Shown here in pieces: positions 13,373-38,226 of a stretch of 41,623 nt of DNA; position 1 is the stretch's first letter, and every line of letters begins with the position of its first letter. The DNA lies in the IMG/VR virus record IMGVR_UViG_3300038466_000067, positions 1 through 41,623 of that record, one strand, 5' to 3'. A model generated the notes under the pieces. It was not told the DNA's origin and made no database searches. It saw only the letters and a program-made list of their open reading frames with translations. Source of the DNA: a virus. Made by a program: the position numbers and the translations under genes.

Positions 13373-13848
13373 TATCCCTGTTCTATCGCGCAGAGATGCA
13401 GCTCGGCATAATGACACAGCACGCCTCCGAACATCCGCTCTTCCACCAGGTCGATCTGCACCCCGGCCTGTCCGGCCATCGGCCCCCACGCCGGAATGAT
13501 GGTCAGGCATGTGCCGTTGAGCGTCTTGTAACTGTCAAATTTTTCCTCGATAGCCGAGAGCAAATTCTCAAACAGTATCCCGGTGCCCTTTGCGTCGCTG
13601 TGCGCCATGATTACGCGGATCTGAAAAATGCGTGCCCTCTCCCGGGATCCGCCGCCGATCGTGGTAGTCCTTTTGGCCATCTTTACCTGCCGGAACATGG
13701 CGGTATTGATCCGTCCGTTGGCATCCTTGAAATGCTCAAGCATTTTATCCGTCTGCACGGCCCATTTGAAATAGTCATACTCAACGCCGATGCCGGACAC
13801 TCCGGAAATAATGGTTTTGATCTGTTCGCGTATTATCGGCAGGCTCAT
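13372..13848 (-). CDS. Tail terminator-like / tail completion protein
   Basis: A 158-residue soluble protein in the slot of tail terminator genes (after the HK97 gp10-like gene and before the tail tube). It begins MSLPIIREQIKTIISGVSG and has the alpha-beta pattern of small tail completion proteins (FQIRVIMAHSDAKGTG, FDSYKTLNGTCLTI, MFGGVLCHYAELHL). The start overlaps the previous gene by 4 bases. The last codons abut the family D repeat. The assignment rests mostly on position. Confidence 0.6.
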   Translation of the reverse strand: MSLPIIREQIKTIISGVSGIGVEYDYFKWAVQTDKMLEHFKDANGRINTAMFRQVKMAKRTTTIGGGSRERARIFQIRVIMAHSDAKGTGILFENLLSAIEEKFDSYKTLNGTCLTIIPAWGPMAGQAGVQIDLVEERMFGGVLCHYAELHLCAIEQG

Positions 13849-14336
13849 GACTGAATCCTCCGGATAATATCGTCCGGGATCTGCTCCAGAATCCTGGTAA
13901 CATCCGCGTGTCGCTTCTCCATCGAGTTTCCAAACATCTTATGCCCCTTTGTGCCCCTTTTTGATATCGCCCGCGCTATAAGAAAAGCCACGCTCCGCGC
14001 CTCCTTGCCATCGTACCCCAGCTTCTTTTCTACCCAGAATTGTATTGGGCCTATCGGCGGGAAGTGCGGTTTTGTGCCCATTTCAACAGGTTCGCCGTAT
14101 TTGGCCGGAGTTGCCACCATGCCCCAGACAGACTCCCCGCTGGTCTGGACTTTTTGAAACACCGTGTCACGCAGATGAATAGGACCGGCCCCGACCGGTG
14201 TTTCTTTCTTAATTTCGGATTCCAGTATCAGGAGCGCTTCAGTAACGCGGGAAACCCTTGCCGCTCTGGAGGCCTCCGGGAATCTGGCAATCAGCTTCTC
14301 AGCTGCCCTCAAATCTACCGTAATCTTATATTCCAC
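13845..14336 (-). CDS. HK97 gp10-like neck/tail completion protein
   Basis: A 163-residue protein resembling the HK97 gp10 family of head-tail joining proteins. It begins with a predicted strand and helix (KITVDLRAAEKLIARFPEAS), then LESEIKKETPVGAGPIHLRD and the family's YGEPVEMGTKPHFPPIGPI block, an aromatic Gly/Pro-rich loop very typical of this family. The C-terminus is helical and basic. It overlaps the next gene by 4 bases. Confidence 0.82.
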   Translation of the reverse strand: MEYKITVDLRAAEKLIARFPEASRAARVSRVTEALLILESEIKKETPVGAGPIHLRDTVFQKVQTSGESVWGMVATPAKYGEPVEMGTKPHFPPIGPIQFWVEKKLGYDGKEARSVAFLIARAISKRGTKGHKMFGNSMEKRHADVTRILEQIPDDIIRRIQS

Positions 14337-14412: not shown

Positions 14413-15105
14413 TTATCTATATTTTCCCGGGTGTGTCAGTTTGTCTCCGCCCCAGGTTCCCGGCAGATCCTGATCGCGGGTAACGCTGGCCGCGACCGCC
14501 TGGCCTTCTTTTATGCCGAGATGATCGTAATAGAGCTTTCTGTACACTCTTGCCCGGGCGCCGTACTCAGAGGCCTTGCTCTTGTGATCCACAGAGTCCG
14601 CCTGGATCGTGCTGTCCTGTGACTGGGCATAATATGTCGCCAGCATATCGCAGAAATAAGCAGCCGCCAGCATCTGCACAAAATCATCATCATGCACCGC
14701 TATCGTGCAGGATGAATCGCTGCATGTGTGCGGCGACGTGTAGGTGATCCGTATCGATTCTGTCGCCGCAGGCTCGTCCTCGAGGAAGCGCAGATATTTG
14801 CCTGCCGGTTTTTGATAGATCGTCCACAGATCGTCCTGCAGGATCTCCGCCTCAGCCTCGGTATCATCCACCGGGTATTCCACCTGGCGAATTATTGAAA
14901 AGCCCTCGGACCAGTTCGCCAGAAGGGTAAGAGCGTAATCAAACCCGGCATTCCCGATTTCATCTTCCACGATTATTCTCGGCCGATGATCGGAATGTTT
15001 TTTCACAGCCGCCAAAACAGCCGCGACTTTTTCAGCATCACCGAGCGGAAGCTCGCCGCCCACCATCGAGCCTATCGCCAACATGTAATCCTGCCTCGTG
15101 CTCAT
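14413..15105 (-). CDS. Probable head completion / connector protein
   Basis: A 230-residue soluble protein after the fibre-tail adaptor-like gene and before the gp10-like gene, the usual place of head completion proteins. It has a helical first part (EKVAAVLAAVKKHSDHRP) with VEDEIGNAGFDYALTLLANW and a second part with DDDFVQMLAAAYFCDMLATYY and SKASEYGARARVYRKLYYDH. The motif ADSVDHKSKASEYGARA resembles phage neck proteins that sense assembly of the connector. The family is not named with certainty. Confidence 0.6.
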   Translation of the reverse strand: MSTRQDYMLAIGSMVGGELPLGDAEKVAAVLAAVKKHSDHRPRIIVEDEIGNAGFDYALTLLANWSEGFSIIRQVEYPVDDTEAEAEILQDDLWTIYQKPAGKYLRFLEDEPAATESIRITYTSPHTCSDSSCTIAVHDDDFVQMLAAAYFCDMLATYYAQSQDSTIQADSVDHKSKASEYGARARVYRKLYYDHLGIKEGQAVAASVTRDQDLPGTWGGDKLTHPGKYR

Positions 15106-15431: not shown

Positions 15432-15510
15432 TCGCTCCGCTCTTTTTAGGGTTTAGGGGTTAGGGGTTAGGGTTTTCCTTGCCCCTTGACCCTATACCCT
15501 TGACCCTATC
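15431..15510. repeat. Family B heptamer inverted repeat (copy 1) with leader copy 2
   Basis: Sense-strand order: an array of GGGTCAA/GGGTATA units, a short AAGGAAAA centre, an array of CCCTAAC/CCCTAAA units, then the leader AAAAAGAGCGGAGCGA directly before the ATG at 15431. The two arms (15447-15470 and about 15481-15510) are imperfect inverted repeats. Confidence 0.85.
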
Positions 15511-16324
15511 TTTTCCCCGCCACATCCGTAAATTGTCTCGCTATCGCTGTATCTGTAAAGTTCCGTTTGCCGACCACGTCCGTAAACAACCGCGCTGCCG
15601 CGACGTCCACGAACTCAATGTTCAGAAAATAATACTCAGCAATGCCCGTAGCCACGCCCACTTGCACAATCAGCGTGTCAATCTGGCCGGCAGTCACATC
15701 GAGAATCGTAATATTCGCCCCGATCAATGCCGTTGCTATATCCGCATACGCCTGCAAATCGGCCAGGGTAATTTTCCCGCCTATGCTCTCCGCCAAAACT
15801 TCCCGATAACCCTGGAGATCGGTCTGGGTGACTTGCGCTCCGATCAGCGCGGTCAGTATCTCTACAAAGCCTTTGTCGTCAGTAACGGAAATTGTCGCGC
15901 CGATCAGCGCAGAAACCTCATCAAGATACTGCTGCCTGTCTGTAACAGACGCACCGGCGCCGATAATGGACTGAATAAGGTCCAGATATGCCTGCCGGTC
16001 GGTTACCGTTTCGGAGGCTCCAATGCGCTCCTGCAGCGCGTCAACATAGCCCTGTATGTCCGTGATGCTTCCAGCCGCGCCGATCAGCGTGGCCAGGATT
16101 TCAATTACGCCCTTATAGTCATCGACTGCTATACTCGCTCCGATCAGCGCAGAGACACTGTCCAGGTAATTCTGCCTGTCTGTAACTGATCCGGAAGCGC
16201 CGATCAGAGACTGAATCAGGTCCAGGTATGCCTGCCGGTCGGTTACCGTTTCCGAGGCTCCTATGTGCGCCAGCAACGAGTCATTAAATACCTGATCGGC
16301 AGTATCGAGCAGCAGATAACTCAT
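15506..16324 (-). CDS. Structural protein made of 20-residue tandem repeats
   Basis: A 272-residue protein with about ten tandem repeats of 20 residues, consensus IGAsxsVTDrQxYLDxvxaL (residues about 21-220). Units 1-4 and 5-8 are copies of each other: the unit IGASETVTDRQAYLDLIQS recurs exactly 80 residues apart, and the DNA shows the same 240-bp spacing (around 15990 and 16230). The C-terminus has shorter repeats containing FTDV (RLFTDVVGKR, RQFTDVAGKR). Such regular repeats suggest an elongated solenoid or coiled fibre. It lies in a row of four virion-type genes between head and tail, so it may be a head or neck fibre. Start and stop overlap neighbours by one to a few bases. No family was recognised. 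Confidence 0.65.
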   Translation of the reverse strand: MSYLLLDTADQVFNDSLLAHIGASETVTDRQAYLDLIQSLIGASGSVTDRQNYLDSVSALIGASIAVDDYKGVIEILATLIGAAGSITDIQGYVDALQERIGASETVTDRQAYLDLIQSIIGAGASVTDRQQYLDEVSALIGATISVTDDKGFVEILTALIGAQVTQTDLQGYREVLAESIGGKITLADLQAYADIATALIGANITILDVTAGQIDTLIVQVGVATGIAEYYFLNIEFVDVAAARLFTDVVGKRNFTDTAIARQFTDVAGKR

Positions 16325-18376: not shown

Positions 18377-18886
18377 TTACGCCGCCTCGCTCAGTTTCAC
18401 CTTGTATGTCACCTGGAGCGATTCGCCAGCCGCCAGAGTCCTGGACTGGCTTAGCGCCACGGAGGCGATATGCTTTTCAGCTCCGCCGATTGTAGCCGCC
18501 AGGACTGCATAAGTCACCGGCCCGATCGAGCCGCCGGACGCGGTGAAAGTGACCGTTTTTGATGTTGCCTGGTAATCGTTTGAGTCCAGCGCCAGGGTAG
18601 GCCAGCCCGTTGCAGACCGTTCCACTTCGATTCCGCCTGCCGGATATCCGCTCCCGGACGGTTCCCCCGTTATAGCCGCGATGGTATCCGTCTCGATGGG
18701 CGTGTCATTAAACAGCCGAACATGAAACGTAGTCGGCGCTGTGCCGCCAATTAGAAACAGATTCAGGATGTTATATTCTCCCTCGTCAGCAAGAAAATTC
18801 GGCTGGTCTTTTGCCTCCCAAAGAACCTCTCCGTTTTTGCCGATATGCCTGAAATCCATCAAGCCGATCCATTTGTGTTTTTTCAT
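18377..18886 (-). CDS. Virion structural protein of unknown family
   Basis: A 169-residue protein beginning MKKHKWIGLMDFRHIGKNGE with EVLWEAKDQPNFLADEGE and YNILNLFLIGGTAPTTFHVR (given in parts). This opening resembles phage proteins placed between capsid and neck genes. The rest is beta-rich (SKTVTFTASGGSIGPVTY, GESLQVTYKVKLSE). It lies right after the O-antigen-ligase-like gene on the same strand, separated by a family B repeat. It is likely a decoration or fibre-attachment protein. Confidence 0.55.
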   Translation of the reverse strand: MKKHKWIGLMDFRHIGKNGEVLWEAKDQPNFLADEGEYNILNLFLIGGTAPTTFHVRLFNDTPIETDTIAAITGEPSGSGYPAGGIEVERSATGWPTLALDSNDYQATSKTVTFTASGGSIGPVTYAVLAATIGGAEKHIASVALSQSRTLAAGESLQVTYKVKLSEAA

Positions 18887-18903: not shown

Positions 18904-18970
18904 TTAGGGTTTAGGGAGTTCCTATACCCTATACCCTTGCCCCTTGACCCTCAAAAGACCCTTGACCCTG
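18904..18970. repeat. Family B heptamer inverted repeat (copy 2)
   Basis: A GGGTTTA-type arm, a short centre and a long arm of CCCTATA, CCCTTGC and CCCTTGA units. The last 15 or so codons of the Wzy-like gene (residues KGLLRVKGQGYRV) are read from this repeat. Confidence 0.8.
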
Positions 18971-20073
18971 CCCTTTAGCGCTCTTCCCACCCACACACAC
19001 CCCAGCAGCGCTGTCGGCGCCACATGGAACGTATGAAAACCCGCAGCCGCCACGGCAGTCGCGGCAAGCCCGGACAGAGCTATTATTTCATGCTCAGTCA
19101 GAGATTCCCGTCGGTGCCATGCTCTACTGTACGTGGCCCCCAGGAAAACCAGTATGAGACCCAACGCCGGGATCCCGATTTCGAATCCAACCTGCAGGTA
19201 CTCGTTATGAGCATGTATAATCCATCCGCCGCCTGTTTTTTTTATCAGATCCGTATCGCTCATCACCATCACCGGGAAAAGCTGCTCAAACGAGCCTAAT
19301 CCCCGGCCGAACATTTCGGATCTGTATGACCAGACGGTATGTTTCCAGATATCCAGTCGCACCATGTCCTTTTTGCCCGGAGGATCAATCGTTATAAAAA
19401 AAATCAGCGCCGCCGCAAACATCGATATCAGCGTTATGGAGGCGCGTAACCGCCAGAGTTTCCTCGGCCCAAACAAGAGGTACACAAAGCAGGCTGCTAC
19501 TGCCGCCATAAAGCCTGTTGTAGATCTGCTTATCAATATTCCGGCGATAGGCAGCCCAAGAAGAGACACCCCCGGCAGGGAATGTTTACGCCACAGTGTT
19601 ATTTTTTCTGTGCTGAAAAACACCGGCAGACACATGGCGAAAAAGGCGCTCGCTTCGTTGATGTTAAATGGCCCCAGATTATTCAGAGCGGAAAGCGGCG
19701 GGAAATATCTTGTTAACCCCGCCAGTTGCATCAGCCCCCAAATAAGCAGCAAGCCGGCTGCCGCGGTCATGGCGTCGTATATATCCGCTTCCGCCGTATC
19801 CCGGAAGCCCTCAGTTGCAACCAGGAAAACGGCGATGGTCAGCAGCGTCAGATACGACGTGGCTATCGGCCCGTACCTCAGCACCGGTATCGTGCACAGG
19901 ACGAAAAACAGCCTCAGCCACCATGACCGCAGCAGGTGTGCCGTAAATACAGCCGCTGCCAGCCAGATGGAAACAAGCTGCCAGCTGAACCGGAGGCTGA
20001 TGCCCTGGGCCGGTATTATCCCAAGCATCAACCCCGGTATTGCTGTAATAAGTATGCGCTGATAAAGCGTCAT
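18922..20073 (-). CDS. O-antigen ligase/polymerase-like (Wzy/WaaL) membrane protein
   Basis: A protein of 383 residues with about ten hydrophobic segments. Before the last segments it has the conserved periplasmic-loop pattern of the Wzy_C family: DIWKHTVWSYRSEMFGRGLG followed by HAHNEYLQVGFEIGIPALGL. These proteins polymerise or attach O-antigen at the outer face of the inner membrane. The start at 20073 is chosen because ATG overlaps the stop of the exported decoration-like protein gene (TGATG), so the two are translationally coupled. A phage gene of this type suggests lysogenic conversion of the surface polysaccharide, perhaps to block rival phages. Its C-terminus reads into a repeat. The function is inferred from the family motif. 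Confidence 0.8.
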   Translation of the reverse strand: MTLYQRILITAIPGLMLGIIPAQGISLRFSWQLVSIWLAAAVFTAHLLRSWWLRLFFVLCTIPVLRYGPIATSYLTLLTIAVFLVATEGFRDTAEADIYDAMTAAAGLLLIWGLMQLAGLTRYFPPLSALNNLGPFNINEASAFFAMCLPVFFSTEKITLWRKHSLPGVSLLGLPIAGILISRSTTGFMAAVAACFVYLLFGPRKLWRLRASITLISMFAAALIFFITIDPPGKKDMVRLDIWKHTVWSYRSEMFGRGLGSFEQLFPVMVMSDTDLIKKTGGGWIIHAHNEYLQVGFEIGIPALGLILVFLGATYSRAWHRRESLTEHEIIALSGLAATAVAAAGFHTFHVAPTALLGCVWVGRALKGRVKGLLRVKGQGYRV

Positions 20074-20561
20074 CACCAGCTGCTTCCTGCTGACGGTGGC
20101 TCGGGATGAACATTGATAAAATATTTTGTGGATGTAGCCGTATCTGTAGTTCCGGGCAGTACCCACCCGATTATTTGATCATATCCGGTAGTGGCATAGG
20201 CATAACCCCCGGCGCCGGTCGATAAAAATAGTCGTGTGCCCGGAGATGCGGCTGCCTGGCCGTCCAATATCCCCATTACCACTATCTCAACCGTCGCATT
20301 CGTGGCGCCACCCTTGTCTATTACCCCTACAGCCGGACGTCTCGTAGAGCTGTCCGCATCCGCCTTATAAATTTGCCCGTCCGCCGCGGCGATACAAACT
20401 ACGTCGCCGATCGTGAGCGTTTCTCCGGCAACTCCTGAAAACCGGATAAATTTCTGCTGCCAGTTTTCGGTTGCATTTGCCGCCGGCATCGCAACCGCCA
20501 GCGCCAGAAACATCGCCAGCATCAATACCCCGATCTTTTTAAACCATCTGTTTTCCTGCAT
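20073..20561 (-). CDS. Exported decoration-like (head fibre/DUF2190-like) protein
   Basis: A 162-residue protein with a clear Sec signal peptide: basic start (MQENRWFKKIG), hydrophobic core (VLMLAMFLALAVA) and an Ala-x-Ala site (ANA, near residue 30). The mature part resembles phage head decoration proteins: GETLTIGDVVCIAAADGQIY, RRPAVGVIDKGG, then ASPGTRLFLSTGAGGYAYAT and QIIGWVLPGT. Capsid proteins do not normally carry export signals. Position directly after the capsid gene is the usual decoration site. Either the signal is a false positive or the protein is shown on the cell surface. The ribosome-binding site is an excellent AAGGAGG, and the gene is coupled to the Wzy-like gene. Confidence 0.7.
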   Translation of the reverse strand: MQENRWFKKIGVLMLAMFLALAVAMPAANATENWQQKFIRFSGVAGETLTIGDVVCIAAADGQIYKADADSSTRRPAVGVIDKGGATNATVEIVVMGILDGQAAASPGTRLFLSTGAGGYAYATTGYDQIIGWVLPGTTDTATSTKYFINVHPEPPSAGSSW

Positions 20562-20590: not shown

Positions 20591-20617
20591 GTGAGCCGTG
20601 ATTTCCTCACGGCTCAC
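20591..20617 (-). promoter_or_regulatory. Perfect 11-bp hairpin in the leader of the decoration-like gene
   Basis: GTGAGCCGTGA (20591-20601) and TCACGGCTCAC (20607-20617) form an 11-bp stem with a 5-base loop, about 30 bases before the start at 20561. No T-run follows on the minus strand. A second stem (TCCGCCA/TGGCGGA, 20653-20673) lies at the capsid stop codon, and TTTGTGCC-type repeat units lie between (20624-20646). The pair could slow RNA decay or lower read-through; not a standard terminator. Confidence 0.6.
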
Positions 20618-20673: not shown

Positions 20674-23073
20674 TTAAGCCACTACCGCCTTGTAACCGCT
20701 CCGGCAGTCGATCGGCGTTCCTGCATACTCGTGCCTGATCTTCCACCGGATTTTGTCCGCCACAAATACCTGCTCCGATTGCGGCGAATCGGCCACGAAC
20801 AGCTCAGGCTCTTCCTTGCCGTTTAAATACCCCATCTCGACCATATCCATCACCGAGGGAGGCATAAGCAGGCCCCAGTCGTTCGCGTCTGTAAACAGCG
20901 AATTCATGAAACCGGCGATTTTGCCCTTCATAGGGTTCCGGGTTTTTGTAGTAAGATCGTTTGCCGAATAATAAAAATCGTCATTCACGATACTTTCCGC
21001 CATAGCGATCAGGTCTATCGGGTATACCAGCATCGGCTTTATGTCCGGAGACGAGAGCATTCCGAGCCGTTCTCCCGAATCTTTTTCCGTCATCTTGGCA
21101 AGCGCCTGGTATGCTATCAGCGCCGTTGAAAACCCCAGCGCTGTCGCCCCCAGGTTGCCGTGGCCGGCTGTAAACCATGCCGTTCCATCGCTGCATGTTG
21201 CATTGTTTATAAAGAAGCCCCACACGTACTTGCCGTGGGTTCTTTTTGCCGTCCGGCCAAGACCATCTACCAGCCTCGGTATAACGCTTTTATCGTCGTT
21301 GATGATGGTTTTTCGCGTTACCGTTAGAAGGTTTCCCTTCTGGAGCACGGTGTATGTGCTCTCTTCATCGGTTACGCCCGCGATTTCCACATAATCATTC
21401 ACTTCGGGATCAACCGTCGCAAGGTCAGGGAATCCGCCTACGAGCACCGCTTCCTGCTGTCTGAAATCCGTTACCGGCTTACGGATCGATATCAGAAGGT
21501 TTTCTCCGTAATCGGCAGCGCGATACTGCCGGACCATCCTGCGTCCCATCGTGTTGCCGAGCAGGTAAGAGAAGGTCGCGCTGTTGATGTCCATGCTCGA
21601 TCTCAAATCGGCAGGTAAGTTTTTGCGGTTAAAAACACCGCTTACCTGTTTGTCTCCGGTTAAAAATACGTACATCTCGCGGATGCCGGAGAAAGCGGGT
21701 ACCTTGTCGAAATCGGCATAATCCTGGACATTTCTCATGTCCTCGAAGAGCGGCTTGTGATCCAGTGTTTCCATTTTGGCAAACGCCTGAATATCGACTG
21801 CCGTCAGCCCGAACATTCTGTCAACCGCCATCTGCGCCCGCTCGATCGTGCCGATCCCCACGACAATCCCGGATGGTATACCCGCGCCATCGGCCGGCTT
21901 CGCGATTTTGGCCAGATAATCCTTTTCTCCCGCGACCGCTCTGTCGAGCTCGTCGGATGTGAAAACCTTACCCGCCATAGACGACCTGATCCTGTCTTTT
22001 GCCACGTCCGGCAGGTTGCTTTCTGCCAGCTTGTCTTTTACCGCCATCTCGCATCGCAGGGCTGCCAGATCGTCTTTTGTGGCCGATTTTGCGTCACCTG
22101 CTATAACCACGGCAGGTTTTTCAAGCTCCATTGCCATCCTTGCCAGCGTGTCCATTTCCGCGTCGGTAATTTTCTCAAATTCCTTCCCGACGAGGAGAGC
22201 CGGCCGTTTTTCATTTACCAGATCCCATAACTTTTTCTTCATGAGCTGCTCCTTTTCGTATTGAGCTGATTGCATTGATGCAACCGCCCTGTTGAATTTC
22301 CCGCCCGCGGCGGGCCTTGTTACGATATCGACCGAGTCAGCCGCCAGAAATTTGACGACTTTAAACACCGGTCTCCCCTCGATCACGTCCTTTGTTGCCC
22401 GTACCGGACAATCGTATGACAATCCGTAAACGGACTTCCCTGCCTGCATTGATGAAAGCAGGTTTTTCCCCAGCCATTTCGCGCTGTCCACAAAATGCAG
22501 GATGCCTTTTAAGCCTTTGCCGGCAACATGTTTTACGCCGTCTATCCAGCCGACCTTGTTTCTTACCAGCAGGCTTTTGATGTCAAAAAGAGGGTCCGGC
22601 AGATGTGTGGCGCCCTGCGGCATCTCGTATAAATTCACATCCACGTTATCAAAAAGACCCGCAGCGTCACGCACGGCATCGTCCGGGATGTACCAGCCGT
22701 TTTTTGTAAATCCGGACTCGCAGATGGTCACATCCCACGCGGTGCCTTCCGGATTCGCGGCCTCGCCGAGACGCATCAGCATTTCCACGCCCTCATCCGA
22801 TTCGGTCTGCTGGGATCTCATTTCCACCCATGTACGCTGCACTTCCACCGGCTCCTGTCCCAGGGTAACCGCGCCCTCCAAAATTGAGTATGCCACCCTG
22901 TAGCAGCGATCCTCTTTTTCGTAGATTACGTATGACGGATAAACCTCTCTCACCCACACGCCGTTCTCGCCTGTGCCGAATTTTTCCCTCACAGCGGCGG
23001 AAAGCAAGTCCCGTATCGTGTCCAGGCTGACCTCAGTATCCTGCTTGTCTCTTTTTGTGTTTTCGCCGGCCAT
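20674..23073 (-). CDS. Prohead protease / major capsid protein fusion
   Basis: A 799-residue protein that joins functions usually split over two genes. Residues about 1-260 look like a head maturation protease: DRCYRVAYSILEG, RTWVEMRSQQ, GLKGILHFVDSAKWLG and SVYGLSYDCPV. A helical scaffold-like stretch (about 270-400, rich in Lys, Glu and Ala) follows. The last ~380 residues are a capsid subunit: AVDRMFGLTAVDIQAFAK, NRKNLPADLRSSMDINSATF and LSSPDIKPMLVYPIDLIA. Fusions of this kind are known in some phages. The protein probably assembles, then the protease removes itself and the scaffold. A very strong GGAGGAGGGG site precedes the ATG at 23073. Confidence 0.82.
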   Translation of the reverse strand: MAGENTKRDKQDTEVSLDTIRDLLSAAVREKFGTGENGVWVREVYPSYVIYEKEDRCYRVAYSILEGAVTLGQEPVEVQRTWVEMRSQQTESDEGVEMLMRLGEAANPEGTAWDVTICESGFTKNGWYIPDDAVRDAAGLFDNVDVNLYEMPQGATHLPDPLFDIKSLLVRNKVGWIDGVKHVAGKGLKGILHFVDSAKWLGKNLLSSMQAGKSVYGLSYDCPVRATKDVIEGRPVFKVVKFLAADSVDIVTRPAAGGKFNRAVASMQSAQYEKEQLMKKKLWDLVNEKRPALLVGKEFEKITDAEMDTLARMAMELEKPAVVIAGDAKSATKDDLAALRCEMAVKDKLAESNLPDVAKDRIRSSMAGKVFTSDELDRAVAGEKDYLAKIAKPADGAGIPSGIVVGIGTIERAQMAVDRMFGLTAVDIQAFAKMETLDHKPLFEDMRNVQDYADFDKVPAFSGIREMYVFLTGDKQVSGVFNRKNLPADLRSSMDINSATFSYLLGNTMGRRMVRQYRAADYGENLLISIRKPVTDFRQQEAVLVGGFPDLATVDPEVNDYVEIAGVTDEESTYTVLQKGNLLTVTRKTIINDDKSVIPRLVDGLGRTAKRTHGKYVWGFFINNATCSDGTAWFTAGHGNLGATALGFSTALIAYQALAKMTEKDSGERLGMLSSPDIKPMLVYPIDLIAMAESIVNDDFYYSANDLTTKTRNPMKGKIAGFMNSLFTDANDWGLLMPPSVMDMVEMGYLNGKEEPELFVADSPQSEQVFVADKIRWKIRHEYAGTPIDCRSGYKAVVA

Positions 23074-23469: not shown

Positions 23470-23535
23470 TCCCGCCGTCAGGCGGCATTTAAAATTCTTT
23501 GCGTCCTTAGCGCCTTCGCGGTTCAAATTGTTTTT
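23470..23535. repeat. Family C repeat, copy 2
   Basis: CCGCCGTCAGGCGG hairpin, then TTTAAAATTC and TTTGCGTCCTTAGCGCC, TTCGCGGTTCAAATTG. It is almost identical to the copy at 23103-23168, 367 bp away, so the small gene in between is framed by direct repeats and could be lost by recombination. Confidence 0.87.
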
Positions 23536-24386
23536 CACCAATTAACCGCCTCATCCATCTTGGGCTCGTTTACGGCCGAATCCCAGTCCGCCCGATACGG
23601 CGCCATGTAGCAGCCGCAGTTAATCGTATTACGCGCCGATCCTGCCGGATCTCTCGGGTACATGAGCTGCTCGCCGCCGACATTAAATGGCTTGTCAACA
23701 TCCCGGATCTGTTTATCCGCAGCCACGTGTGCCAGCCTGGGAACCCGCCTCGGCGCTGTGCCGTATATCCACTGCTTTTGCAGCCCTTTTACAACCTTGC
23801 CTGCTTTTTCCAGCCGCGCCTGGCTTGCCGCCTCGAGCACCCGTCCGCACTCCGTCCGGGTGATCGTCTCCGCCCGGGCGGCTATCGATGTAAATATCGA
23901 TTTATCCTTGAGGTTTTTACCTACCGCCTGCATCACCTCATACGGCGTTTTTTGTCCCATCAAGCCCAGGGTAAGCTCGTTATTGATTTTAAGCGCCGCG
24001 TCTTTTGCCAGGCCCTTCACGAGATCCGCGCCGTAACCCTGCATAATGCCTAACACGGTCGTATCTATCTCCGGGATCAGCGCTTTCACCCCGACCGTCC
24101 GAAGCGGCATATCAACCGCGTCGATCCCGGTATTCCAGAATTCCAGCTGGGCATCCCGCAGATCCACTCCGTATTTAGTCCCAAATTCAGCCATTGCGCG
24201 TTCCACGGCGTCTTTCATCCGGGGCAGTTGGTAAGCCTGCCAGTCTGTTTCGGCCACGGCAGAAGCGATATCCCTGCGCGCAGAGGCCAAAAGCTTAATG
24301 ACTTTCTGCACTTCGGCGGCCTCAAGGTTCTGGGTGTTTTTGATCAGATCCCGAACCTTCTTCTGAAATCGCTGCTCTTTGGTCAT
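23535..24386 (-). CDS. Head morphogenesis protein (Mu gpF/gp30-like, SPP1 gp7 family)
   Basis: A 283-residue minor head protein of the SPP1 gp7/Mu gpF family, which binds portal and helps start head assembly. The N-terminal two thirds is helical; the conserved C-terminal part shows RAETITRTECGRVLEAAS, VPRLAHVAADKQIRDVDKPF, then GGEQLMYPRDPAGSARNTIN and CGCY. That last block (H..DG..., YP.DP.GSA.NTINCRC) is diagnostic. It lies directly after the portal gene. The stop TGA directly abuts a family C repeat. No strong ribosome-binding site is seen ahead of the ATG at 24386. Confidence 0.9.
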   Translation of the reverse strand: MTKEQRFQKKVRDLIKNTQNLEAAEVQKVIKLLASARRDIASAVAETDWQAYQLPRMKDAVERAMAEFGTKYGVDLRDAQLEFWNTGIDAVDMPLRTVGVKALIPEIDTTVLGIMQGYGADLVKGLAKDAALKINNELTLGLMGQKTPYEVMQAVGKNLKDKSIFTSIAARAETITRTECGRVLEAASQARLEKAGKVVKGLQKQWIYGTAPRRVPRLAHVAADKQIRDVDKPFNVGGEQLMYPRDPAGSARNTINCGCYMAPYRADWDSAVNEPKMDEAVNW

Positions 24387-24398
24387 TTAATTAACGAT

Positions 24399-24482
24399 GG
24401 TTCCTGGTTTATGATTTCTGGTTTATGGTTTCTGGTTTCTGGTTTTTAACCCTCAACCCTCAACCCTCGACCCTATACCCTA
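24399..24482. repeat. Adjacent heptamer arrays of families D and B
   Basis: Units GGTTCCT, GGTTTAT, GATTTCT, GGTTTAT, GGTTTCT and GGTTTCT (family D) are followed without a break by AACCCTC, AACCCTC, AACCCTC, GACCCTA and TACCCTA (family B type). Two families in one gap show that arrays can be joined. The portal gene stop lies at the array's right edge. Confidence 0.85.
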
Positions 24483-25892
24483 TTCTTTTATCAGTTTGTC
24501 GTAATCGGTCTCATTATCCGGCAGCTTCGCTTTTGCCGCCTGGATCTCGGCCTCGGCGTCTATCTCGTACCCGACACTTTCAGACACATTTGCGAAAAAT
24601 TTTGTAGCGGTATCTCTGGAGATCCACCTGTTTGTCTCGGCTATTGTCAGCGCCGCCGCTACTTGCGTTATGCCGGCCAGCGCCGCCGAAGTATCTTTTT
24701 TGCTCACTTCCGGCATGTTTACCGTAAACCCCGCGTCCGCTTTTGCGGGCGAAAGCCGCTTGGCGATAACAGCCTGGTCTAACACGAACTGAATTACCGT
24801 TGTTATGATCGATTTAAGGTATTTCTGCCGCTGCTCCATGTCCGAAATCGGCACCTGGCCAAACAGATCAGCCTCGGTCTGATACGCTTTCCCGCCCGCG
24901 CCAAACCACGAATCCGGCCTGCCTGCTGCGCCCATGATGTACTGCTTCGCCATATCAAAGCCGCTTTTGAAATCCTGGGCTTTTATGTCCGGCGCCACGG
25001 CGGTCCATTCCACCTGCTCATTATGCGCCCGGATCGATCCCGGGTCCGGAGGCGGATTGTTGCGAACCCATTCCTTTATCTGCTCTTCGGTCATGCCTTT
25101 CAGCATTACGTCCCATACAAAATTCATCATGAAATCGGAGCGCTCCAGGTAATTAAAGCCGTGCCGTTCAAGGCCGTCTATCCAATCAAACAGCGTCAGG
25201 AAGTCGGAGCGCCCGCGGGGAGAATTCGGAGGATGATTGATAGAATTGAAAAAGCATTCCCCGACCAGCCTGCCGTATGTTTTTGAATAAATGTTGTTAT
25301 CCCTGCGAATTATGGCAAGCTTCCTGTTTCCCCGGCTCTCAGTGCCCATAATCTCGGCCTGCATCATCTGCCGCACATTGTACGGATTCACGTAGATTTC
25401 ACGTACCAGCGACGGATCCGTGTACCCGAGACGCACAAAGCCGTTTGTCGGGTTTACCTCAACCGGCCAGCATTGCTCTCCCAGCAGCGACAGCCACATG
25501 GCAAGATCCGGAAAGTTCAGATCCATATTGTTTTCAGTATCATCCCAGAAAGCGTCTATTACCTCCTGAGCCATATAAGCCTCGGCCCTAACGGTAATTT
25601 TGCCCGCAAAAAGAAACCCGCGATCCATCACGGCCAGGCGCCGCAACATCGCGGACGCGTCAAACATATAATAGGCTATTTCAAACATCCGGCCCTGATC
25701 GATCGACTGCATATCCCTGCGGATTGCTCCGTTCGACAGAGGCCTGTAACCTTCCCCGTGAGGATCGTAACTGGCCGTTATCGGCAATGCCATTTTTGCC
25801 CGCTTTATTTCCTCAGCAACCAATTGCTGGACAGCGGCTGAATCTAAAAGATTCGGAGCTAACAGTTTTGCAACCCTTTGCCTGAATGACAT
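24480..25892 (-). CDS. Portal protein (Mu gp29-like, DUF935 family)
   Basis: A portal subunit of about 470 residues of the DUF935/Mu gp29 type. It begins MSFRQRVAKLLAPNLLDSAA and has the family regions MFEIAYYMFDASAMLRRLAV, AEAYMAQEVIDAFWDDTENN, GRPDSWFGAGGKAYQTEADLF and a C-terminal DAEAEIQAAKAKLPD. Portals form the dodecameric ring through which DNA enters the head. The start at 25892 (ATG, GAGGGG 6 bases upstream) is preferred over the GTG at 25913, which would overlap the terminase stop. It follows the terminase, as in Mu. Confidence 0.9.
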   Translation of the reverse strand: MSFRQRVAKLLAPNLLDSAAVQQLVAEEIKRAKMALPITASYDPHGEGYRPLSNGAIRRDMQSIDQGRMFEIAYYMFDASAMLRRLAVMDRGFLFAGKITVRAEAYMAQEVIDAFWDDTENNMDLNFPDLAMWLSLLGEQCWPVEVNPTNGFVRLGYTDPSLVREIYVNPYNVRQMMQAEIMGTESRGNRKLAIIRRDNNIYSKTYGRLVGECFFNSINHPPNSPRGRSDFLTLFDWIDGLERHGFNYLERSDFMMNFVWDVMLKGMTEEQIKEWVRNNPPPDPGSIRAHNEQVEWTAVAPDIKAQDFKSGFDMAKQYIMGAAGRPDSWFGAGGKAYQTEADLFGQVPISDMEQRQKYLKSIITTVIQFVLDQAVIAKRLSPAKADAGFTVNMPEVSKKDTSAALAGITQVAAALTIAETNRWISRDTATKFFANVSESVGYEIDAEAEIQAAKAKLPDNETDYDKLIKE

Positions 25893-25902
25893 ATTTTTCC
25901 CC

Positions 25903-27426
25903 TCACGCCTCACGGCTTTTCCCCGCCGCAGGCGGCCTATTCAAATCCCTTGCGTCCTTCGCGCCTTCGCGGTTCAAATTGCTTTTTCCCCCGTATCTTC
26001 CGAAAAATCCGCCCTTCGCGCGGCCCCGTTTTATAAATATCTCAGTTTTTTCCGGTTCCCGGCCCACACATATCGCCTGGCCTGGTGTCGAAGCCGCGTG
26101 TATCGCGAGCGCCAGCGCCCAGAAGCGGTCGGCGTGGCCGTTTTCGGAACGCTCGGCAGTAAACCGTATATTACCCGCCGCCGTGGTTTCTTTGGTCACT
26201 GCCCGCAGGTCGGCTCGTATCTTCGGATCGTATGGTATGCGCAGCTTTTTATCTTCCATCTTTCCGCGCACCGGATATGCCAGCTCTTCTTTTACATGCT
26301 GCGTAAATGTCACGCATTCCATGCGATATTCGCCGAACTGTTTTTTCGCGTCGTCTCCCCAGCCTATGCCGAGGCCGGTATAGTCGATGCAGCATCTGTT
26401 AAGCAGCTTCATCCAGGGCCAGAGCACTTTCTCCTGATCCGGCTTGCTCATTTTTTTTAAGGTGATGATCTTGCGGGTATAAAGCACGTCTCCTTGCAGT
26501 TCTAATATCCACAGTACGGTCAGGTCTTTTTTTCTTCCGATATCGAGCCCGGCATACAGCCTGCTTTTGCGGTCCGCGTTTGTCTCCGGATATTCCATTT
26601 CCCATTTTTCCAGCGATGGATATTCGCAACCGGCGATGAGATCGTATTCGAGAAAAGCCACCTCGTCATCACCGGGCACACACATGTATTCCTGCTGAAA
26701 AGATTCTTCATCCGCGCATCCAGATTTGATGAAATCAAAATATTCCGCCTCGTTCATCGCCCGCACTTCGTGATCGTCCGGGAGGGATTGCTGCAGTTTG
26801 TAAAGGAATCCATCACCCAGCGCATCTTCCAGGGTTACCCTGTGATGACTTATCTTTTTAGGATTATTGTGCTCTTTTATTTCCCGGATAAGCAGGTTAA
26901 AATAGTTGCCGCTTCCCCGGTGGGTTGATATCACTTCCAAGTTTCCGCCCCAGGTAATACCCGGGTAAGCTATCGTCCACAGCTTGCGGGGATCCGGGTG
27001 CAGGGCAAATTCATCCAGCACACGTCCGCCTCGCTTTCCAGCCTGGGCGTCCGGATTCGAACTCATTGAATGTATGCGCTTTTTTGATGCAAAATTGAGC
27101 ACGTAGGCGGATATTTTCTTCTTTTCATCGAGCACGATCTCGCCAAGATCTTCCGCCGCGACGTGCAACACTTTTGCCCACATTTTACAATCTTCGATGA
27201 ACAGTCTGGCCTGCAGATCGTCCCGGGAGGAGACCCACTGATCCCAGCGGGCGCCCGTTTCTGCAGTGCGCTCTGTGCATCCGTACGCGGTGCCCCACGA
27301 AACGCCGACCTGACGGGCTTTCTCCATCAGTTTCAGCCGACTCCGATCCTTGATCCAGCGCTCCTGATATCCCAGGAAGAGCCCATTCGGATTTGCCGGA
27401 ATTATATTTGCTTTAACTTTTTTCAT
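25903..27426 (-). CDS. Terminase large subunit (Mu gp28-like)
   Basis: A 507-residue packaging motor ATPase/nuclease. The Walker A-like stretch is EKARQVGVSWG near residue 35-45, Walker B is GGRVLDEFA near residue 133-141, and the RNase H-like nuclease starts at YAGLDIGRKKDLT (near residue 293) with TGLGIGWGD and HADRFWALALA near the end. Its start overlaps the gp27-like stop by 4 bases. The last 26 or so residues (SNLNREGAKDARDLNRPP onward) are read from a family C repeat and probably are not part of the ancestral protein; the ancestral stop may have been lost when the repeat arrived. Confidence 0.92.
   Translation of the reverse strand: MKKVKANIIPANPNGLFLGYQERWIKDRSRLKLMEKARQVGVSWGTAYGCTERTAETGARWDQWVSSRDDLQARLFIEDCKMWAKVLHVAAEDLGEIVLDEKKKISAYVLNFASKKRIHSMSSNPDAQAGKRGGRVLDEFALHPDPRKLWTIAYPGITWGGNLEVISTHRGSGNYFNLLIREIKEHNNPKKISHHRVTLEDALGDGFLYKLQQSLPDDHEVRAMNEAEYFDFIKSGCADEESFQQEYMCVPGDDEVAFLEYDLIAGCEYPSLEKWEMEYPETNADRKSRLYAGLDIGRKKDLTVLWILELQGDVLYTRKIITLKKMSKPDQEKVLWPWMKLLNRCCIDYTGLGIGWGDDAKKQFGEYRMECVTFTQHVKEELAYPVRGKMEDKKLRIPYDPKIRADLRAVTKETTAAGNIRFTAERSENGHADRFWALALAIHAASTPGQAICVGREPEKTEIFIKRGRAKGGFFGRYGGKSNLNREGAKDARDLNRPPAAGKSREA
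25921..25987. repeat. Family C repeat, copy 3, inside the terminase 3' end
   Basis: CCGCCGCAGGCGG hairpin, then TTGCGTCCTTCGCGCC and TTCGCGGTTCAAATTGC. Unlike the other copies it is translated, as the C-terminal tail of the terminase. Confidence 0.85.
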
Positions 27427-34759: not shown

Positions 34760-35230
34760 CTATATGTTGCATTCAATTTTAAACCGATCCCGATCCGGTA
34801 TATGCCAAACGGCTTCCACGCCTATCCCGTTTGTGCGCGGCCTGCGGTATACCATCTGTACTAACCCGGCGCGTTTGAGGGCTCGCAAAATCTTATGCAC
34901 CCAGCCCGAATCCTGGACCCCCGCCAACCTCTGGACATCTGCCGCCACAAATGATCCGGACACATACATGGCTTTGTATATCCTTTTATTAAGGGAGCCC
35001 TTTTTGGCCTTCTTCCAGTCACGATTATATAAATATTGTCGCCGATTGTATTTCGTCACCGGGATCAATTCTTTGCGCCTGACACAGTCGCTGATTGCAG
35101 CGCTGATTCTGGCTCGCCCAATCTCTGGGAATGCCAGGCAAACCCTTTTTTTGTCGAATGCCTTGCTTTGCCCGGACATCCATTCCCGCAACCGTTTGGC
35201 CAGCCCTGTTTTAGGTATTTTTAATGACAT
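34760..35230 (-). CDS. Winged-helix DNA-binding-like phage protein
   Basis: A 156-residue basic protein that appears to contain two winged-helix-like units: AFPEIGRARISAAISDCVRR then KELIPVTKYNRRQYLY, and SGWVHKILRALKRAGLVQMV with YRRPRTNGIG. It lies after the MuB-like ATPase and overlaps its stop by 20 bases. Such proteins are common in the early region of transposable phages and may regulate transposition; the exact role is unknown. Confidence 0.65.
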   Translation of the reverse strand: MSLKIPKTGLAKRLREWMSGQSKAFDKKRVCLAFPEIGRARISAAISDCVRRKELIPVTKYNRRQYLYNRDWKKAKKGSLNKRIYKAMYVSGSFVAADVQRLAGVQDSGWVHKILRALKRAGLVQMVYRRPRTNGIGVEAVWHIPDRDRFKIECNI

Positions 35231-35897
35231 CTGCCACCATCTCCGGGATGATTTCTGTCAGTCCGCTCGCCTTCATGGCCCGCTCTATTCCAACAGCCAC
35301 GGTAAGCACCGGGCGCCAGTCGCCCTTTGAAAACTTGTGTATTTCTCCGGCTACGTCCGCAGAAACTACGGAGAGGGCCTGCTTGAAAAAAAAGGATATG
35401 TCCTGCTGCGTGATCGGAGTAAATTCCATCCGTCTGCGGATCCTGGAGGCGAGTCTCCGCCTTGAGGCTATTTTGCCCTTGAGAAGTTCCTCACCGATCA
35501 GAAGGACAGGGCAGGCATACCGCTCATTGACGTTACGAAGCATCTCCAGGTTATTCATAGCTAACAGATCCGCCTCGTCTATAATGATCAGCCTCCGGTG
35601 TTTGCCCATCTCGCTGCCGATTATTTCAAGGCATGCATCGGATCGGCCCGGTCGTGTGGATGCAAGCTCAAAGGCGATTTCCCTCAGTAGCATCGCGGGC
35701 GACCGTATGTTAAGCGGCGGGATATAGACAGCATCTGCGTTTACAGCAAAATGCCGGGCGGCTTCCGTTTTCCCTCTCCCGGCCTGTCCCGTAACCATTG
35801 CCATTGATGGCCCGACCATGCTCATCGGGTCCGACAGCTCGTTGCAGATCTCGTAAAACTTCCTGGTATTCGCAGTCTCAATAAATTCAGGTCTCAT
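35211..35897 (-). CDS. MuB-like AAA+ ATPase (transposition target selector)
   Basis: A 228-residue AAA+ ATPase. Walker A is GQAGRGKT (residues 37-44), Walker B is LIIIDEAD (near residue 100), followed by LEMLRNVNERYACPVLLIGE with the sensor 1 region and RLASRIRRRMEFTP with an arginine-rich box. The C-terminus is a small helical domain like that of MuB. MuB binds target DNA, stimulates MuA and provides target immunity. It follows the transposase gene. The start is preceded by a variant of the repeated GGAG leader. Confidence 0.92.
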   Translation of the reverse strand: MRPEFIETANTRKFYEICNELSDPMSMVGPSMAMVTGQAGRGKTEAARHFAVNADAVYIPPLNIRSPAMLLREIAFELASTRPGRSDACLEIIGSEMGKHRRLIIIDEADLLAMNNLEMLRNVNERYACPVLLIGEELLKGKIASRRRLASRIRRRMEFTPITQQDISFFFKQALSVVSADVAGEIHKFSKGDWRPVLTVAVGIERAMKASGLTEIIPEMVADVIKNT

Positions 35898-35973: not shown

Positions 35974-38208
35974 TTATTTATAGCTTCTCTCAAACTGCCA
36001 CCGGTCCCGCTCCGCAGGCGTCATTTCCGTCTCATGCTGTGCCGCGAAAAGCCTGTCTTCATCCGTTAATACGCCGCCGCATTTTTCGTACTCGAGTATC
36101 CAGAAATACCGGTCGCTTTCCCGCATGAAATAGCTGGGTCTTTCCGGCAGGGGTTTCTTCGATTTCAAGGGCAGGGGTGAACCGGCTTCCATCTTTTCTA
36201 TGTGGGCGTCGATCTCTTCCTGCGTTACAACCCGGTTTTGTGCTGTATTTTCGATTGCCCTCTGGCGTTTTTCCTCGCCGATAACCGCCACAACTCTTTC
36301 GAGTGCCGGGACCTCGGAATACTGCCGGAAATCCGGAATCGGCTTTGTAAGGCTGCGGAAACTCTCGGCGATCGCTTTGCGACGGCTGCGTTTTTCGTGA
36401 ATTTTTCTCGCCGCCAGATCCATATCCTTCATTGAAGAGTATTCCACAGGATGCGCTACGCAGACGTATTTGTTTCCCTGGAATACGAGCAGGGTATCGG
36501 CCTCAAGTGGATTGTAGCGGATGTTGACGCTCTGTTTGTGCAGATCTAACAGGGCGTCATGCTCATAGCGCTCGCCGTGAAACTCAATCCTTCCCATGTG
36601 TACAACCCGTTTTGATTTTGCCAGGAAAATCAGGTTCGCGGCTTCGTCAGAGATCCGGACCGGGCGCCATCCGGCTTCGTAACAAACTTTAAGACAGCCC
36701 AGAGGCGTGATCTGTTTCGGCTTCGGCAGCGGACATTCTTTATGCAGGCCCCTGTGATGTTTATCGCGGTTGTAATAATCGATCGCCCGGTAGAGCGCGA
36801 TGAAAAATTCAGAGGCAAGCGGCAACCTGCCTGAAATAGCCAGGCTTTTTGCCTCGGCCTGGTCTATGTCCTGGGCATGGATATCACCGTGCAGATCCTT
36901 GACATTACCCGGGAGCGCGAACCGGCTCCGTAAGATTCCCTCAAGATGATTGAACGTGCCCTCGATCATCTTGGCTTTGGCATTTTTTACCACCGCTTTC
37001 TTGTGGGTGCCCGGCATGATCACGCAGGGGTTCAAGTCTTCTGTGTCGGTATCGAGGATGTCCATCGGGTAATCGTCCGTGGTTTCCCATGCCATGCCGA
37101 GAGAGCGGATGTCGGCGAGTATCCCAGTGAGATACTTCGATAATTCGGGTTTGCCGTTGTCTGTGTAGATGCTCTTGAAGGCGCCGAACACGCGCATGCC
37201 TATGCGCAGGGCGAGGCCGATCAGATTTGCGTCATAATGTTTATCGAGAGCAGCACCGTAGATCATCCGGGTGCGCAAATCCTGCCAAAGATAACCTTCC
37301 GGGCGGAATACCTGGCCGGTCTCATCGTCGACAACCCAGAAATCGAAGCGATGCTGATCGCCGACAAGGATCTCAAAGGGAGCCAGGTCGGAATAATCCC
37401 GAAGCACCGGCGGGAGCATGTTATCAAGCGCCCGGGCGCCGCCGTCCCGGTATGCGATGTGAAGGGGAGAGGCTTTTTTGTCAAACCACCAGTTTGCGGA
37501 TTCATACCCGCCGATATTCCAGTCGCGCCGGTCGGATTCGACTATCAGGATATCGTACAGGTCTTTTCTGTTTATATGCCGGTGCTCGCGTTTCAGGCAA
37601 AGGCCCACCCAGAAGTCCACCGCCTCCGGAGTCCATTTGCGAGGCTCATTTTTATAGGATTTGGTATGCCGGATGCCGAAAATCCCCTTTTTTTCGTGCT
37701 TTGCTATCCATTTATATATAGTGGTCCAGTTGACACCGTGTTTTATGGCGACAGTTTCGAGCCATTTGCGCTTGCCCTTCGACCAGCTCCTCGGCATATC
37801 GTCCACATCGCGCAGGATCGCCATGATGCGCCGGATCCTCGGATTGCGGAGATCGTCTAAGGATATTGCTGTTTCGGGCGTCGGATCGTGACGTTTTTCG
37901 GCGAAAGCTTCTTCAAAAGAGGGAAAAGGCATCGGGGAGATAATGTCCAGGGCTTTTGAAGCCACGGAAGGAGAGAGGGCGGGGAGCATGTTTAGGGTTT
38001 CGGTCATGTTGCCTGTATCCTTATTATATAAGACGATGGAATTCTGGATGTCGGGAGGAAGGGCGGATTCGTCATTAAAGATTAATTGTTCGCCTCCATT
38101 GCCTTTTTTCGGTTTTCCGCCCCATCCGCCTTCACGCTTACACCGCCTCAAAAGGCTTCGTCGTGGTTTTTTTGTAATCTCCGATAACCGTTTCAGTGTG
38201 TATTTCAT
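35974..38208 (-). CDS. Mu A-like DDE transposase
   Basis: A 744-residue DDE recombinase with the MuA domain order. It has an N-terminal DNA-binding part (MKYTLKRLSEITKKPRRSLL), an HTH region near residue 160 (WTTIYKWIAK), the catalytic core with Asp in ILVGDQHRFD (near residue 284), Asp in YTDNGKPE (near 350) and Glu in GTFNHLEG (near 417), and a Mu-type C-terminal beta-barrel and basic helical tail. It cuts and joins the prophage ends. The ATG at 38208 has GAGGGG nine bases upstream; a TTG at 38217 is possible. Full length, so it looks active. Confidence 0.93.
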   Translation of the reverse strand: MKYTLKRLSEITKKPRRSLLRRCKREGGWGGKPKKGNGGEQLIFNDESALPPDIQNSIVLYNKDTGNMTETLNMLPALSPSVASKALDIISPMPFPSFEEAFAEKRHDPTPETAISLDDLRNPRIRRIMAILRDVDDMPRSWSKGKRKWLETVAIKHGVNWTTIYKWIAKHEKKGIFGIRHTKSYKNEPRKWTPEAVDFWVGLCLKREHRHINRKDLYDILIVESDRRDWNIGGYESANWWFDKKASPLHIAYRDGGARALDNMLPPVLRDYSDLAPFEILVGDQHRFDFWVVDDETGQVFRPEGYLWQDLRTRMIYGAALDKHYDANLIGLALRIGMRVFGAFKSIYTDNGKPELSKYLTGILADIRSLGMAWETTDDYPMDILDTDTEDLNPCVIMPGTHKKAVVKNAKAKMIEGTFNHLEGILRSRFALPGNVKDLHGDIHAQDIDQAEAKSLAISGRLPLASEFFIALYRAIDYYNRDKHHRGLHKECPLPKPKQITPLGCLKVCYEAGWRPVRISDEAANLIFLAKSKRVVHMGRIEFHGERYEHDALLDLHKQSVNIRYNPLEADTLLVFQGNKYVCVAHPVEYSSMKDMDLAARKIHEKRSRRKAIAESFRSLTKPIPDFRQYSEVPALERVVAVIGEEKRQRAIENTAQNRVVTQEEIDAHIEKMEAGSPLPLKSKKPLPERPSYFMRESDRYFWILEYEKCGGVLTDEDRLFAAQHETEMTPAERDRWQFERSYK

Positions 38209-38226
38209 TTGGATCAACCCCTCGAA

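Follow-up and report, generated by a model that had tools for sequence, protein, structure and literature searches.

Enzymes of the Wzy_C/WaaL class are described in the literature as using lipid-carried glycans in the periplasm. Among them, TfpO (PilO) and TfpM are Wzy_C/WaaL-like proteins without PglL_A or Wzy_C_2 that are encoded beside a single exported substrate, a type IV pilin, and modify a C-terminal serine or threonine following its proline-rich tail (PMC12645811). For TfpO the acceptor is the very last residue. Phages also carry Wzy_C genes: D3 Wzy-beta and VarioGold VG_p25, proteins with many membrane helices, are encoded in separately oriented accessory clusters, and the Wzy_C genes of D3, phi297 and VarioGold have been read as agents of serotype conversion (PMC9658991). 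A D3-type seroconverting moron is oriented away from the late genes and has inhibitor and acetylase genes as partners.

Known cement and decoration proteins assemble in the cytoplasm and are not known to carry a signal peptide, and decoration proteins are able to bind finished heads. Glycosylation of mycobacteriophage virions uses phage glycosyltransferases that act in the cytoplasm. In one mycobacteriophage report, two glycosyltransferases suggest glycosylation of the capsid (PMC11256854). In the searched literature, mainly open-access journal papers, we found no description of a phage oligosaccharyltransferase, or of a phage enzyme adding host sugars to an exported protein of the kind considered below, and recognised none that deals with decoration proteins bearing signal peptides.

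The window, by which we mean the whole stretch of 41,623 bases analysed (the complete IMG/VR record IMGVR_UViG_3300038466_000067), belongs to a Mu-like transposable phage whose minus strand also encodes a small terminase, an amidase, a tape measure and a J-like tail protein (Table 1). The head module runs in the order portal, Mu-F-like gene, scaffold/capsid, a gene for an exported protein and a gene for a Wzy_C protein; the neck genes lie downstream, and everything from capsid to Neck1 is on the minus strand. When this region was scanned for promoters, matches did not exceed the number expected by chance. The hairpin between the capsid gene and the exported gene is terminator-like only on the plus strand. 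In a cluster of fibre-like genes, positions 15506-16324 encode a 272-residue protein with imperfect repeats of the form DRQxYLDxVxxLIGAxxxVTD, and a similar repeat protein is found in locus L050.

Table 1. Features of the window phage discussed in the text (positions in the window)
Feature	Position	Strand	Basis
Transposase	35974-38217		phrog_310, 7e-64
DNA transposition protein	35211-35897		phrog_296
Portal, first in the head-module gene order	24480-25913		
Mu-F-like gene, between portal and scaffold/capsid	23535-24386		
Fused prohead-scaffold/major capsid protein, 799 aa; first gene of the local unit	20674-23073	-	PF25209 4e-29, phrog_4523 8e-40
Perfect 11-bp hairpin between capsid gene and exported gene	20591-20617	.	
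Exported decoration/cement-fold protein, 162 aa, proposed acceptor	20073-20561	-	AF2, Foldseek, Pfam matches of homologues
Sec-type signal peptide, residues 1-30, predicted cut between ANA and TEN	20472-20561	-	read from sequence
Decoration/fibre-base fold, residues 33-150	20112-20465	-	AF2, structure matches
Tail motif PPSAGSSW (family consensus P-x-S-x-G-A-G-Y)	20076-20099	-	low-pLDDT tail, positional conservation, Ser codon switching
Candidate acceptor Ser157	20091-20093		tail motif position -6
Putative Wzy_C/WaaL-fold membrane transferase, 383 aa from ATG	18922-20073	-	PF04932 6e-14
His-Asn codons of the HNEYLQ loop	19204-19209	-	H[NSQ]x9G pattern in 19/21 homologues
Conserved neck-region gene, downstream landmark	14413-15105	-	homologue 3′ of the pair or long form in most loci
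Neck1/tail-completion protein	13845-14336	-	phrog_5 4e-9

The N-terminus of the exported protein, MQENRWFKKIGVLMLAMFLALAVAMPAANA followed by TEN, reads as a standard Sec signal with an n-region MQENRWFKK, an h-region IGVLMLAMFLALAVAM and an AxA cleavage site. The AF2 model, based on an alignment of 24 homologues, has a pLDDT of 88.8, with the last dozen residues poorly ordered, and in Foldseek the PDB entries that rank highest are decoration proteins of phage capsids (Adjutor, HFTV1, Sf11, TW1, Pam3), the base of the phi29 head fibre ranking lower. By single-sequence profile search the window protein itself has no Pfam match, and its resemblance to decoration proteins is weak at that level; nine of the 24 homologues match Phage_cement_2 (PF09956, best 3.2e-6). 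The alignment also matches the neck fibre 8keg in the PDB (2e-6), and in a viral library the same fold is a module within many fibre-like proteins, so that 'decoration or fibre base' is the safest name for it. Both the fold and the position after the capsid gene are shared with cement and decoration proteins (PF09956, TW1, HFTV1, gpD/SHP) and with the base of the phi29 head-fibre protein gp8.5, but a Sec signal peptide sets this protein apart from the known cement and decoration proteins.

A home-made scan found a signal-like N-terminus in 48 of 53 homologues, and every Wzy-linked homologue with its start in the data also has one. Its conservation through the family, relatives without Wzy_C among them, favours the export proposed in the preliminary description. 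The comparison with signal-less relatives envisaged there is available in L123 and L130, but these are distant and also lack both Wzy_C and the tail described below. One could suppose instead that the N-terminus has nothing to do with export, that the protein remains in the cytoplasm, where it is processed or retained for the virion, and that the Wzy_C gene is unrelated to it, as would suit a fold otherwise seen in capsid decoration proteins assembled in the cytoplasm. We consider this very improbable, because canonical n, h and c regions and the AxA site are kept across dozens of divergent homologues, identity being 25% in the signal against 59% in the domain, and because other genes of the capsid-neck interval also bear signals: 22 of 57 other open reading frames there have a signal-like start, compared with 15 of 649 in the rest of these loci, a large contrast obtained with the home-made scan and thresholds of our own setting.

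The second gene encodes a protein that matches Wzy_C (PF04932) with 52.5 bits against a curated cut-off of 31.7 and carries the sequence HAHNEYLQ; all 21 of its 21 homologues match PF04932 too. Its AF2 model (pLDDT 82.6, pTM 0.85) is closest in Foldseek to the O-antigen ligase WaaL (7tpg; E 9.8e-5, TM 0.52, 14% identity), which likewise has an HN motif in a large loop. Unlike for WaaL, there are no LPS genes beside the phage gene, whose neighbour is an exported phage protein. The loop motif H[NSQ]x9Gxx[GTY], which we take to be of the WaaL/PilO type, is found in full in seven of the 21 homologues and as H[NSQ]x9G in 19; the window version ends in GIPA. The HN pair is replaced by HG in L033 (8292-9398) and by DN in L137 (3270-4379), and these two enzymes may be inactive or use another residue. 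NCBIfam gave sub-threshold matches only, to TfpM and to a polymerase, the curated TfpM model reaching an E-value of 0.012 in one of the 21 homologues and nothing stronger. The Wzy_C domain alone cannot separate transferases, ligases and polymerases, and the subclass is not assignable by sequence.

The two genes are physically coupled. The stop codon TGA of the exported gene (20075-20073) overlaps the ATG of the Wzy_C gene (20073-20071) by one base, an in-frame GTG at 20076 is an alternative start that would give a protein of 384 residues, and a Shine-Dalgarno-like AGGAAG lies within the tail codons of the exported gene. The main elements of the preliminary description hold up, namely a decoration-like protein with a Sec signal, a stop codon overlapping the start of a membrane protein with an HNEYLQ-type Wzy_C loop, and the placing of both genes between capsid and neck genes on the late strand. 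Its suggestion that the two proteins are made together late in infection fits the overlapping or nearly overlapping genes, which leave no gap for a separate promoter.

Single-sequence searches with both window proteins against viral contigs, phages and genomes gave no match, nor did tblastn of the Wzy proteins of the window and of L010 against 50,697 phage records. Relatives were reached only by way of the capsid, next by way of the exported protein, and next by way of a subset of the Wzy proteins, the first Wzy alignment being too diverse for scanning. The capsid search gave four viral contigs, one Microcystis phage and 26 prophage loci, and profile searches then yielded 53 and 80 viral loci; many of the contigs behind the comparisons are fragments. 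Metagenome-assembled genomes sharing capsid and Wzy_C are titled Desulfomicrobium, Verrucomicrobiales and Syntrophobacterales, although binning of phage contigs into such genomes is uncertain. In every locus a script mapped the genes for the capsid, the exported protein, Wzy_C and the neck protein, and the exported proteins were tabulated.

In more than 60 related loci the first gene after the capsid encodes the same base fold, nearly always with a signal peptide; in distant relatives the base domain is absent or another gene occupies the slot. This gene exists in two states. In the long state, of about 190-475 residues, the base carries a fibre-like C-terminus, parts of which in one long form match phage tail-fibre and baseplate proteins, and no long-form locus has a Wzy_C gene behind it. 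In the short state, of 151-168 residues, the base is followed by a disordered tail ending in P-x-S-x-G-A-G-Y-COOH and then directly by Wzy_C, whose start is mostly within 40 nucleotides of the exported-gene stop and often overlaps it. Twenty-five distinct cases are of this kind, together with L003 and L153, the latter being the one new contig from the Wzy-led scan, with a signal peptide, an SAGAGY tail and Wzy_C in the same order. Six signal-bearing short forms have no Wzy_C behind them, the contig ending soon afterwards in one. A hidden, divergent Wzy_C in these was rejected as an explanation: whole-record searches of the viral contigs with long or Wzy-less short forms, mostly fragments, gave no Wzy_C match. 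In L051 (6914-8477) the exported protein is present in tandem copies, a long form and then a short one.

Wzy_C also occurs behind exported proteins of other kinds. In locus L160 of a bacterial genome (G376), and likewise in the viral contigs L164-L166, the capsid-neck slot is taken by an unrelated signal-bearing protein of 150 residues, 10 nucleotides before a 436-residue Wzy_C protein; a homologous pair with overlapping genes is found in G430 (L168), and exported proteins of this type occur without Wzy_C in L014 and L023. In the podovirus-like locus of G432 (L169), where terminase, head-tail adaptor and major head protein come from other families, a third signal-bearing protein lies 8 nucleotides before Wzy_C, between adaptor and capsid. 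Thus Wzy_C recurs among head genes immediately after an exported protein, irrespective of the identity of the latter, and with L153, L160, L168 and L169 added to the 25 distinct loci it always stands beside a single exported candidate substrate. With this recurrence, the pairing noticed in the window is more than a product of chance. The L160/L168 partner has an SGSTGY-like stretch at its mature N-terminus and the L169 partner a GTSGYYW; both look similar to the tail, but motifs of this sort may be widespread in fibres, and they carry no weight in the argument here.

The tail of the short form is a linear motif inside a disordered C-terminus. Among the 25 Wzy-linked tails the last residue is aromatic in 24 (Tyr, Phe or Trp), position -2 is Gly or Ala in 23, position -6 is Ser or Thr in 22 and position -8 is Pro in 19, positions -5 and -7 being free; all 25 have Ser or Thr within the last eight residues. 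The window tail agrees with the consensus at P-8, S-6, G-4 and the aromatic end. Pairwise identity is 0.69 at S-6 and 0.76 at Y-1, compared with a domain median of 0.62 and 0.25 in the signal peptide. Loci differ in the codon class used for serine at -6, TCN or AGY, which points to selection on the residue. Loci in which Wzy_C begins 79-124 nucleotides further on keep the motif as well, and it is therefore not a ribosome site or translation signal; that the tail codons are kept merely as a Shine-Dalgarno sequence for Wzy_C was rejected on this ground, and also because the codons for Ser and Pro precede the G-rich codons that might act as such a sequence. The terminal Tyr is a less likely acceptor, the last residue being Trp in the window, Phe in L040 and Asn in L107. 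As in the TfpO and TfpM substrates, the candidate Ser/Thr site would be C-terminal and follow a proline-rich stretch, but in the phage proteins it is sixth from the end and followed by x-G-A-G-Y, whereas TfpO uses the last residue; and the candidate substrate is a decoration-fold protein of a head operon rather than a pilin.

The motif tracks the enzyme. In the Wzy-less signal-bearing short forms Pro -8 and Ser -6 are largely lost, with Asn at -6 in five of six (Fisher p 0.0018, uncorrected for kinship), and most retain the final GY. Mapped onto an 82-row capsid tree, the Wzy-linked state has to change 15 times, and at least 11 of these changes are forced by the starred branches; in 11 independent pairs differing in Wzy_C, the motif moves along with it 8.3 times and in the opposite direction 0.2 times (median p 0.008). 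Distances between Wzy_C proteins are correlated with base-domain distances of their exported neighbours (r 0.50, p 0.0065, n 20) but not with capsid distances (0.02). In the long state base-domain distances track capsid (0.42) and neck (0.60; n 27), and in the Wzy state they follow neither (-0.12 and -0.04; n 18). In Wzy-bearing phages, therefore, it is apparently Wzy_C, not the capsid, that the exported protein is partnered with. The most deviant tails, those of L049 and L107, share one Wzy clade (97, starred).

Tail and enzyme are adjacent DNA, and joint transfer alone yields part of this co-variation, so they could move as one cassette with no functional link. On such a reading insertions favour the slot that follows the first post-capsid gene, short protein and Wzy_C form a single segment, and the tail is structural and independent of the enzyme. 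Adjacency alone predicts the joint transfer, the last GY survives in most Wzy-less short forms and many genes in the capsid-neck interval are mosaic; but the loss of Pro -8 and Ser -6 from most of those same forms, the switching between serine codon classes and the different, unrelated exported proteins before Wzy_C in L160/L168 and L169 are not what it would lead one to expect, and we regard it as improbable.

Instead, the restriction of the Pro-x-Ser tail to short forms and its tracking of Wzy_C suggest that the neighbour is itself the substrate. We put at roughly even the chance that the two genes are a dedicated phage acceptor/transferase pair, new in this setting; the arrangement is real and recurrent and has lacked an explanation. 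In the scheme we favour, the first gene would supply a small, Sec-exported protein of decoration or fibre-base fold and the second a WaaL-fold Wzy_C enzyme in the inner membrane with its active loop in the periplasm, both made late through translational coupling. The enzyme would take a lipid-carried host oligosaccharide or O-antigen chain and link it to a Ser or Thr of its neighbour's disordered tail. The resulting glycoprotein would replace the fibre-like C-terminus that sister phages bear on the same base, and would then most likely be picked up by virions at lysis or else coat the cell surface. Pick-up at lysis is plausible since decoration proteins can bind finished heads, but the lack of co-evolution with the capsid in the Wzy state weakens the virion part and makes a role at the cell surface equally possible. 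The proposal resembles mycobacteriophage glycosylation in that phage genes are thought to add sugars to virion proteins, and differs in placing a periplasmic Wzy_C enzyme on an exported protein in place of cytoplasmic glycosyltransferases.

The main competing explanation is late serotype conversion, in which Wzy_C alters O-antigen polymerisation or ligation so that LPS is changed just before release, perhaps keeping progeny from adhering to debris or preventing superinfection, and the exported protein is an independent neighbour. Phage Wzy_C genes have been read in this way (PMC9658991), the WaaL fold is the same, and host genomes have their own Wzy_C proteins and hence substrates. We nevertheless think it unlikely, though less so than a passive cassette. 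As the preliminary description anticipated in setting this locus apart from moron-type O-antigen genes, the known cases are separately oriented morons with partner genes (PMC9658991), and the window gene is not of that type: it lies on the head-module strand, overlaps the upstream gene by one base and, like its relatives, stands directly behind an exported protein in a head operon. Nor would serotype conversion explain the Pro-x-Ser tail, its co-variation with Wzy_C and the repeated switch with the fibre form. The general change of the cell surface put forward in that description is accordingly not favoured as stated, the evolutionary evidence tying Wzy_C to its exported neighbour. In two loci the arrangement is damaged: in L003 (4020-4989) the start of the exported gene has been fused by a deletion, out of frame, to the end of Wzy_C, and in L084 (6038-6591) Wzy_C is split over two frames, possibly by assembly error. 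Together with the loss of the HN pair in L033 and L137, these copies suggest that the enzyme is dispensable or decaying in some phages.

If the acceptor/transferase reading is right, a phage protein of head-decoration fold is exported and then receives host glycans from a phage enzyme, which would be a new way to modify the virion or host surface and a natural case of a glycan taking the place of a fibre on a single base, and would open a new source of compact acceptor-tag/transferase pairs. More tentatively, several groups of tailed phages may encode a periplasmic protein-O-glycosylation pair, an exported decoration or fibre-base protein with a C-terminal acceptor tag and a dedicated Wzy_C; the pair would clothe the cell, or the particle at lysis, in host polysaccharide and be interchangeable with a protein fibre on a common base. 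Should the glycan step prove wrong, current models of phage assembly would still not explain a conserved signal on proteins of capsid-decoration fold in an interval rich in exported proteins. Signal peptides seem to have been gained or lost on unrelated head-accessory proteins, to judge from the gene 3′ of Wzy_C in the window (18377-18886), which has none, and its homologue in L020 (10254-10817), which has one. A second signal-bearing family, with the sequence (D/H)KTRVI(S/T)F and a weak similarity to a 'major tail protein' family, lies between capsid/Wzy and neck in L007, L010, L044, L046, L091, L129, L132, L137 and others. Runs of several signal-bearing genes in this interval occur in L114 (12819-18053) and L048 (9144-10734), and include a protein of 1056 residues and a collagen-like (GATGPQG) protein with a signal.
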